Below, one piece after another: positions 39,861 through 41,309 of a stretch of 64,000 bases of DNA; position 1 is the stretch's first letter, and the number at the start of each line of letters is the position of its first letter. The translations under genes and the position numbers were made by a program. The notes below the pieces were generated by a model that did not search any database, had not been told where the DNA came from, and saw nothing but the letters and a program-made list of their open reading frames with translations. Origin of the DNA: Arthrobacter sp. zg-Y844 (GTDB lineage Bacteria > Actinomycetota > Actinomycetes > Actinomycetales > Micrococcaceae); assembly GCF_024385465.1 (NCBI RefSeq), contig NZ_JANFLS010000002.1:310001-374000 (forward strand), given 5' to 3'.

Positions 39861-39930
39861 GGGAGTGGCCCAGGGGAGTAGGCCCAGGAGAGTAGGCCCA
39901 GGCGAGTAGGCCCAGGCGAGTGGGCCGGGC
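39859..39930. repeat. 14-bp imperfect tandem repeats
   Basis: Directly after the methyltransferase stop, about five copies of a 14-bp unit close to GGsGAGTAGGCCCA follow one another; the unit resembles the sequence around the stop codon itself. The run is noncoding. Confidence 0.75.
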
Positions 39931-40069: not shown

Positions 40070-40125
40070 CTTGTGTACAGCTGATGCTGCCTGCGGGCGA
40101 TCCAACAGCATCAGCTGTACACAAG
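40070..40125. repeat. 20-bp perfect inverted repeat
   Basis: CTTGTGTACAGCTGATGCTG (40070-40089) and its exact complement (40106-40125) flank a 16-bp spacer. No T tract follows on either strand, so it is not a standard terminator. It could form a long hairpin or cruciform, or bind a dimeric protein at either arm. Confidence 0.9.
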
Positions 40126-40304: not shown

Positions 40305-40332
40305 AGTTGACATAATGTAGATTATCGGCGTT
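40305..40332. other. dif: Candidate chromosome-dimer resolution site dif
   Basis: A 28-bp site: AGTTGACATAA (40305-40315), 6-bp centre TGTAGA (40316-40321), TTATCGGCGTT (40322-40332). Read on the other strand this is XerC-type arm AACGCCGATAA, centre TCTACA and XerD-type arm TTATGTCAACT, the same 11-6-11 layout as E. coli dif (arms ending CATAA/TTATG) and close to the dif sequences I know from actinobacteria. XerC/XerD and FtsK would act here to resolve chromosome dimers. Strand-biased oligomers switch at this point, which supports the call. Confidence 0.85.
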
Positions 40333-40583
40333 ATAAACGGGGTGCCGGAAGTGGCGTAAACCACAGATATTCCCCAATCGTCCATCCGGCCCCGATTGCC
40401 CGCTAATCCCCCGTTTTCGCCGCATTTTCCGGAAATTACCAGCGTCCGTCGTTTTCCGCGCAGGCTCCGGCGCCGTGGATGCTGTCCCGTACTGAAAGGC
40501 CGCCAACGGCTGGGGGCCCCAAAACGGCTGACCAGGTCCGACGGTTTCCGTCCCCTTGGCGCCCGATGCGCCGCCGCGTACTC

Positions 40584-40594
40584 AGTTGACATAA
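40584..40594 (+). repeat. Isolated XerD-arm copy (exact)
   Basis: AGTTGACATAA, identical over all 11 bp to the XerD-type arm of the dif site and in the same orientation, but followed by CGTCCTCC instead of a XerC-type arm. It cannot be a complete dif site. Confidence 0.7.
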
Positions 40595-40628
40595 CGTCCT
40601 CCGGGAACCCGGTTGGGTGATCTGCACG

Positions 40629-40639
40629 GCTTTACATAA
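40629..40639 (+). repeat. XerD-arm-like motif (8 of 11)
   Basis: GCTTTACATAA matches the dif arm AGTTGACATAA at 8 of 11 positions including the last six, same orientation. The weakest member of the series. Confidence 0.4.
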
Positions 40640-40730
40640 CCGCCGCTCGGCCCCTGCCCTGCCCGGGAAACCGCCTGACCTGGTCGCGCGCCTTTCAGCC
40701 GGCGCCAGCCGCGCAAGGCGTAGCTTCCCG

Positions 40731-40741
40731 GGTTGACATAA
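40731..40741 (+). repeat. XerD-arm-like motif (10 of 11)
   Basis: GGTTGACATAA matches the dif arm at 10 of 11 positions, same orientation, followed by TGCCCCGAT and no second arm. Confidence 0.6.
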
Positions 40742-40774
40742 TGCCCCGATCAGCTGCTCGGTCGGGGCTGCGCG

Positions 40775-40785
40775 GATTGACATAA
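40775..40785 (+). repeat. XerD-arm-like motif (9 of 11)
   Basis: GATTGACATAA matches the dif arm at 9 of 11 positions, same orientation, followed by CCGGCT and no second arm. Confidence 0.55.
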
Positions 40786-40960
40786 CCGGCTGCTCAACAC
40801 TGCCCTGCCGTGCCCTGCAGGGTGACCTGGCCCCGGCCGGCCCGGGCATGAAAGCGGGAATACAAAGTTCCGACGGGACGTTGATCACTTTCCTGCCGTA
40901 TTTCGTCATCCGTGGCCCGCCACGCCTGTACGGTTTGGTGCAGCGACTTTCGTTGCCCTA

Positions 40961-41006: not shown

Positions 41007-41309
41007 ATGGCTACCGATTACGATGCCCCGCGCGTCAAGGAAGAAGACCAGCACACAGACTCCCTCGAGGGTCTGAAAGCTCAGCAGCGTGGCGGAGCGA
41101 TGACAGCAGTCATCGATGTCGAAGAGTCAGACGCCATTGACGGTTTCGACCTTCCGGGTGCGGATCTTTCCGGCGAGGAACTGCTCATCAAGGTGGTTCC
41201 CCCGCAGGCAGACGAGTTCACCTGCATGTCCTGCTTCCTCGTACGCCACCGTTCGCAGATTGCCCGCGAAAAAAACGGCGAGGCCTACTGCGTGGACTGC
41301 GAGGGCTAG
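41007..41309 (+). CDS. DUF4193 family protein
   Basis: A 100-residue acidic protein of the actinobacterial DUF4193 family, starting MATDYDAPRVKEEDQHTDSL. The C-terminal half carries FTCMSCFLVRHRSQIAREKNGEAYCVDCEG, where CMSC and CVDC likely bind zinc. Function unknown. An AGGAG sequence lies 14 bp before the ATG. It is the first gene after the dif-like site. Confidence 0.88.
   Translation: MATDYDAPRVKEEDQHTDSLEGLKAQQRGGAMTAVIDVEESDAIDGFDLPGADLSGEELLIKVVPPQADEFTCMSCFLVRHRSQIAREKNGEAYCVDCEG

Follow-up and report, generated by a model that had tools for sequence, protein, structure and literature searches.

The plasmid recombination sites cer and psi carry accessory sequences that adjoin the XerC side of the Xer core and are bound by PepA with ArgR or ArcA. 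The exit of SMC from the chromosome is, to our knowledge, known in detail in few bacteria. In Bacillus subtilis, XerD-specific binding sites reportedly unload SMC at the terminus, a result attributed to Karaboja et al. 2021. B. subtilis XerD is also cited as a sequence-specific SMC unloader at the terminus in passages of two papers (PMC12322038, PMC11898615). Here we describe a row of XerD-type half-sites beside dif in an Arthrobacter genome, its conservation throughout the host's genus, and an N-terminal tail of XerD with the same distribution. The locus shares with B. subtilis the presence of XerD-type half-sites without a XerC arm, near the presumed terminus, in an organism with SMC and XerD. 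As at cer and psi, the extra sequences flank a Xer core on its XerC side. The window is the whole stretch of DNA that was analysed, 64,000 nucleotides long.

XerD-type half-sites beside dif

The window contains an ordinary actinobacterial dif, composed of a XerD arm, a 6-bp centre and a XerC arm. Four half-sites resembling the XerD arm lie to the right of it, inside the 1.1-kb gap between the end of a methyltransferase gene (39860) and a DUF4193 gene (41007-41309).

40305-40332, + strand: dif, AGTTGACATAATGTAGATTATCGGCGTT, with the XerD arm first (40305-40315), then the centre (40316-40321) and the XerC arm (40322-40332)
40584-40594, + strand: XerD-type half-site 1, AGTTGACATAA, identical to the dif XerD arm
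40629-40639, + strand: XerD-type half-site 2, GCTTTACATAA, 8 of 11 positions matching the dif arm
40731-40741, + strand: XerD-type half-site 3, GGTTGACATAA, 10 of 11 matching
40775-40785, + strand: XerD-type half-site 4, GATTGACATAA, 9 of 11 matching

An earlier, sequence-only reading of this DNA had listed these sites and their match counts, and each was confirmed in place and on the + strand. Its further claim, that the half-sites have no XerC-type arm, is borne out by the host genome. A search for full dif, allowing up to two mismatches, gave a single match, so the extra half-sites are arms without a XerC partner. The sequence-only reading mentions neither the even number of half-sites nor the GACCWGGTC motif nor the tail of XerD, which is encoded elsewhere in the genome.

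The row of half-sites beside dif is far from chance. There are six exact copies of the 9-mer TTGACATAA in the 3,370,572-base (3.37-Mb) host genome, five on the + strand and one on the - strand, and 4/6 share a strand and a 480-bp stretch at dif. The reversed-letter pattern of TTGACATAA, used as a control, occurs five times. The genome-wide count of the 9-mer, which the sequence-only reading had put forward as a check, is therefore favourable to it, since the copies are not scattered. Across the whole window, arm-like 11-mers with up to two mismatches number 7 against 2.95 expected, and 5 of 100 shuffles reach 7. That count is unremarkable alone; the clustering is the striking part. In the 29 genomes of the genus described below, TTGACATAA occurs 4-8 times per genome, and its sole cluster among the matches listed is at dif.

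Several other features were noted along the way. A perfect 20-bp inverted repeat with a 16-nt loop lies left of dif (40070-40089 / 40106-40125) and is possibly a terminator or operator. A tandem 14-bp repeat (GGCCCAGG.GAGT-type) occupies 39867-39922, directly after the methyltransferase stop. Elsewhere, hand comparison showed that at least 13 genus genomes have a lone TTGACATAA some 60-82 kb away from xerD (e.g. G000:C2:869969 and G007:C1:1438733), perhaps within a conserved gene.

Conservation of the array in the genus

The dif region was examined in 29 species-level genomes of the host's GTDB genus, the Arthrobacter citreus/luteolus/koreensis group. The dif pattern is present in 29/29 genomes. 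It has a single match in 28, and G021 has a second one, with two mismatches, on another contig. In genus genomes with a main contig longer than 3 Mb, dif lies 35-56% along that contig, a position that is meaningful only if contigs start near the origin, as was assumed; the host assembly consists of 9 contigs.

A strict arm pattern identified 95 half-sites in the 29 loci, with four sites at 19 loci, two at 9 and one at a single locus (L005). A relaxed arm pattern, written after the weaker second site of L005 was seen, identified 96 half-sites in 29/29 loci, four at 19 and two at 10, and with this pattern the number per locus is always even. All 96 are oriented like the XerD arm of dif and lie at +235 to +477 from dif on its XerC side, the first of them at +235 to +320 in every genome. 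In the 29 loci the opposite strand of this interval has no half-site, and neither has the dif strand of the mirror-image interval upstream of dif. A weight-matrix scan covering 1.5 kb to either side gave 97 matches besides dif; every one fell between +200 and +550 and on the strand of dif, leaving 0 in the other bins and 0 on the other strand. L030 (the second dif-like site of G021), L085-L088 (secondary dif-like sites) and L199 (G250, from another family) were left out of the counts. The half-sites that the sequence-only reading proposed to look for in the dif regions of relatives are kept in the host's genus.

The DNA between the half-sites has diverged and contains insertions and deletions; other short blocks are also kept in the window's subclade, as seen by alignment. 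TTGACATA and TGACATAA, both supplied by the half-sites, are the sole 8-mers common to 29/29 loci at +24 to +540, with 0/29 in control stretches left of dif. Information content in the half-site core is 1.3-2.0 bits per position, values that are partly built in because the sites were chosen by pattern. The independent evidence for the array is strand, position and the shared 8-mers. Internal spacings of the half-sites cluster at 42-46 and 52-56 bp, and the distance to dif is loose. Helical phasing was considered and rejected. Spacings of 32-33, 42-46 and 52-56 bp approximate 3, 4 and 5 turns, but those of 100-102 bp are off, and the period statistics are weak.

Promoter and RNA readings of the array were discarded. 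The half-sites start with a -35-like TTGACA as in sigma-70 promoters, but a TANNNT -10 box is found 15-19 bp downstream in 0/95. The stretch 40440-40860 folds no better than shuffled sequences (z -0.9; 20 of 100 shuffles at least as good). In the array stretch Rfam gave four weak matches, none reaching the gathering score.

A companion motif and the neighbouring gene

A second conserved motif, GACCWGGTC, is interleaved with the half-sites in the window. Together with a half-site pair it makes up a module of about 147 bp.

40530-40538, no strand assigned: GACCWGGTC companion motif of module 1, GACCAGGTC, 54 bp ahead of half-site 1
40677-40685, no strand assigned: GACCWGGTC companion motif of module 2, GACCTGGTC, 54 bp ahead of half-site 3 and 147 bp past module 1
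40824-40832, no strand assigned: degenerate companion motif, GACCTGGCC, a further 147 bp on, with no half-sites after it
41007-41309, + strand: DUF4193 gene (PF13834), bordering the array

With up to one mismatch allowed, GACCWGGTC occurs downstream of dif in 12/29 genus loci, namely 11/12 of the window's subclade, as grouped by XerD, and L008. Two copies 144-148 bp apart are found at 9 loci. At 3 loci, copies with one mismatch are present to the left of dif as well, within 300 bp. A 20-bp inverted repeat (90%) at 40530-40549 / 40666-40685 encloses half-sites 1 and 2 and contains both GACCWGGTC motifs.

Throughout the genus the array is flanked by dif and DUF4193, the DUF4193 start having been located by pattern in 27/29 loci and by alignment in the other two. 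The DUF4193 gene is probably a neighbour and not part of the system.

The array outside the genus

The comparison with other genera used 79 dif loci from 31 other Micrococcaceae genera. They are part of 185 non-genus genomes of the family: 18 came from the initial listing, 36 were hand-picked to cover genera, and 25 were added for genera without listed places. A same-strand pair of half-sites within 120 bp was found in 0/79 of these loci, a few of which are cut by contig ends, vs 29/29 in the genus. The search for half-sites beside dif in other Micrococcaceae, also proposed by the sequence-only reading, thus argues against a wide role.

Lone half-sites do occur. Among 54 other-genus loci scanned with the weight matrix, 14 fall at +200 to +550 (9 on the dif strand, 5 on the opposite strand) and 7 in all other bins together. 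The remaining 25 loci have 3 lone half-sites, one of them at +200 to +550. Lone half-sites are thus somewhat enriched 200-550 bp from dif elsewhere, partly in coding sequence, and such a lone site may predate the genus or may carry no meaning. The four lone sites of genus g10 (L034, L037, L038, L041) lie in conserved sequence that was read by eye as type III polyketide synthase-like coding sequence. Those of g13 (L062, L063, L084) have the opposite orientation. L068, L069 and L195 (genera g23 and g31) each have one half-site in the orientation of dif, some 300 bp away in apparently non-coding DNA, and these could be ancestral single sites.

Close pairs of half-sites were also sought in wider samples. 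In an order-wide sample the TTK form of the pair pattern, which recovers 25/29 known arrays and misses lineages with a different XerD arm, was found in 4/396 genomes: 3 of the 4 genus members sampled and G250, which belongs to another family and carries its pair and its dif-like site on separate contigs. In a class-wide sample the TTG form, which recovers 18/29 and misses the same lineages, was found in the window's genome only, of 394. As far as tested, the array is therefore confined to one genus and so is not an actinobacteria-wide equivalent of the B. subtilis sites. The idea of an actinobacterial XerD/SMC counterpart, raised by the sequence-only reading, keeps the support of a conserved, oriented array in the host's genus but loses its general role, there being no pairs at the dif loci of other Micrococcaceae.

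Secondary dif-like sites with a changed centre (e.g. TTGACATAAGGT..) were seen in several Micrococcaceae genomes (L030, L085-L088 and others). Some are on contigs of 100-400 kb, and they are possibly the dif sites of replicons or mobile elements. The five that were inspected all lack a half-site on their XerC side; L088 carries one on the opposite side, at 384 bp.

XerD of the genus has an N-terminal tail

The xerD gene lies outside the window. XerD of the genus is longer than in the other genera inspected. Ahead of the XerD core, 29/29 genus genomes encode a conserved tail motif, NDT[IV]-x(5-11)-N-x-T[LI]-x-L[DE]. In most of them the motif leads into a variable linker in which Ala, Pro and often Lys abound. 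Tail and core were placed in one open frame by script in 27/29. In G001 (L236) the core pattern is unmatched, yet tail and core share an open frame of the same length, 457. In G022 (C1:2740602-2740724) the tail is in a different frame from the core, reflecting either a sequencing error or a real frameshift.

The tail is very probably translated, since a possible xerD start codon lies -1 to +14 nt from the stop of the upstream gene in 29/29 genomes. The upstream gene was read by eye from its sequence as a NUDIX hydrolase. The distance from the upstream stop to the conserved XerD core motif is 272-497 nt in six genus members vs 47-143 nt at ten loci from eight other genera, two of which were measured twice. 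A profile built from 15 tails found no match at E <= 0.01 in the 79 other Micrococcaceae genomes of the dif comparison and none below E 0.05 in 14 genomes of other families.

Array and tail have the same distribution: both are universal in the genus and absent in the other genera compared, where a XerD without this tail serves a dif without an array. Because both arose on one branch, which amounts to a single event, the shared distribution is suggestive of a link and leaves the mechanism unproven. From these sequences, the tail quite possibly acts together with the array, a claim that we place just short of probable.

XerD as the candidate reader of the half-sites

The half-sites were compared with the XerD arms of dif itself. 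The 95 strict-pattern sites comprise TTGACATAA (64), TTTACATAA (14), TTGTCATAA (8), CTGACATAA (5), ATGACATAA (3) and TTAACATAA (1). The dif XerD arms of the 79 other-genus loci are TTGACATAA (47), TTTACATAA (25), CTGACATAA (5) and TTAACATAA (2). TTTACATAA, the form of half-site 2 in the window, is the dif XerD arm in 2/29 genus genomes, and ATGACATAA is also met as a dif arm in other genomes. TTGTCATAA, which accounts for 8/95 half-sites, was found as a dif arm in none of the 108 loci compared. Apart from TTGTCATAA the two sets of variants coincide, which favours XerD as the reader.

The host can supply the players that the sequence-only reading had named, with XerD, a XerC-like recombinase and SMC all encoded. 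Four tyrosine recombinases were found in its genome and three were scanned by profile. XerD matches TIGR02225 with 348.2 bits, above the NCBIfam cut-off of 329.6. The XerC-like recombinase has XerC as its best match with 318.9 bits, below the cut-off of 335.15. The third, encoded on contig C5, resembles XerD more weakly (162 bits). SMC matches TIGR02168 with 891 bits. Judging from the half-site variants and the encoded proteins, XerD is likely to bind the array.

Possible functions of the array

On balance, we favour reading the array as a platform at the replication terminus that binds XerD only, where tailed XerD would form a polar nucleoprotein complex. Monomers of tailed XerD would occupy the half-sites two by two, all with the same orientation, with no part played by XerC or by recombination. 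The tail, with its short conserved motif and flexible, partly basic linker, would tie array-bound XerD molecules together or recruit a partner, and we infer that binding would be cooperative. The polar complex, a few hundred bp from dif on its XerC side, would mark the terminus. It would most likely stop or unload a DNA-translocating complex, for which SMC-ScpAB is the prime candidate.

The output of such a platform is a separate matter. SMC unloading or blocking leads by analogy with B. subtilis, although as a specific claim it is doubtful, and FtsK-linked roles or help to dif recombination may be the output instead. The B. subtilis unloading sites are not known to depend on dif. Nearness to dif would therefore not be required for unloading, which counts against our reading. 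The full proposal is put forward tentatively: the genus would have evolved a XerD tail and an oriented half-site array, forming a polar complex that is distinct from the recombination synapse and that ends SMC (or FtsK) translocation at the terminus.

The array might instead be an accessory sequence for dif recombination, at which bound XerD raises the local concentration or shapes the synapse so that one topology is favoured, as at cer and psi. Its placement speaks for such a role: in 29/29 genus loci the half-sites share the polarity of dif and lie 235-477 bp away from it on its XerC side, the side that the accessory sequences of cer and psi also flank. However, dif and half-site 1 are 235-320 bp apart, a variation unlike that of a rigid accessory complex, and the 79 dif loci of other genera have no pair. 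We therefore regard an accessory role as somewhat unlikely. Since the internal spacings are clustered and the dif distance is loose, a stand-alone platform fits better than a rigid accessory complex.

Tailed XerD bound to the array could also act on a terminus machine other than SMC, as a polar barrier or as a signal for loading, through FtsK arrival or arrest or through fork arrest. Strict polarity and the position at dif are consistent with this, and FtsK acts through XerCD at dif. We consider such a function unlikely.

A different kind of explanation is that the half-sites are operators of another DNA-binding protein, for instance a DUF4193 regulator, and that their likeness to the XerD arm is fortuitous. 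The array sits between dif and DUF4193 throughout the genus, GACCWGGTC is interleaved with it in one subclade, and a third XerD-like recombinase is encoded on another contig. Against this, among 65 non-genus DUF4193 loci, the 12 without dif that were inspected have no exact half-site in the fetched flanks. Moreover, none of the 95 half-sites has a -10 box at sigma-70 spacing, and the spectrum of half-site variants largely tracks that of dif XerD arms. Taken together these results make operators quite improbable.

That the half-sites are decaying remnants of a duplicated dif, or of elements integrated at dif, is very improbable: they equal one dif arm and some retain a few central bases (TGT/CGT), but they are kept in 29/29 species-level genomes while the intervening DNA diverges, they occupy one strand and one distance range, and a second full dif (up to two mismatches) exists in 1/29 genomes, on a different contig.

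The compact array and the removable XerD tail with which its presence tracks offer a two-part, deletable system for asking if XerD does anything beyond recombination, and if such a function depends on additional contacts between XerD molecules or with a partner.

Comparison with known systems

At cer and psi, the accessory sequences are read by PepA with ArgR or ArcA. The Arthrobacter repeats differ from them in being copies of the XerD arm and in lying at a variable distance from the core, the 235-320 bp between dif and half-site 1 standing in place of a fixed accessory-to-core distance. The core site itself is an ordinary actinobacterial dif in the light of Kono et al. 2011 (PMC3025954), and the arrays are additional to it; the terms 'half site' and 'Arthrobacter' are absent from the main text of that paper, the part to which this statement applies. 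MatP-matS of E. coli, in which a sequence-specific protein bound at the terminus is reported to displace an SMC complex (MukBEF), resembles the function proposed here. The protein and the sites are different in Arthrobacter, and no relation is claimed.

Searches of the open-access literature turned up no account of half-sites arrayed next to dif, nor of an Arthrobacter XerD with a tail. XerD-only sites are known in kind; as far as these searches show, a unidirectional array fixed next to dif and paired with a tail on XerD is undescribed in that literature.

The nearest relatives in kind are the XerD sites of B. subtilis, from which SMC unloading in Arthrobacter would follow only by analogy. 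The Arthrobacter array differs from them in that it is compact and strictly oriented, consists of 2 or 4 sites set off from dif by a few hundred bp, is found in one genus, and is accompanied by a tail on XerD.
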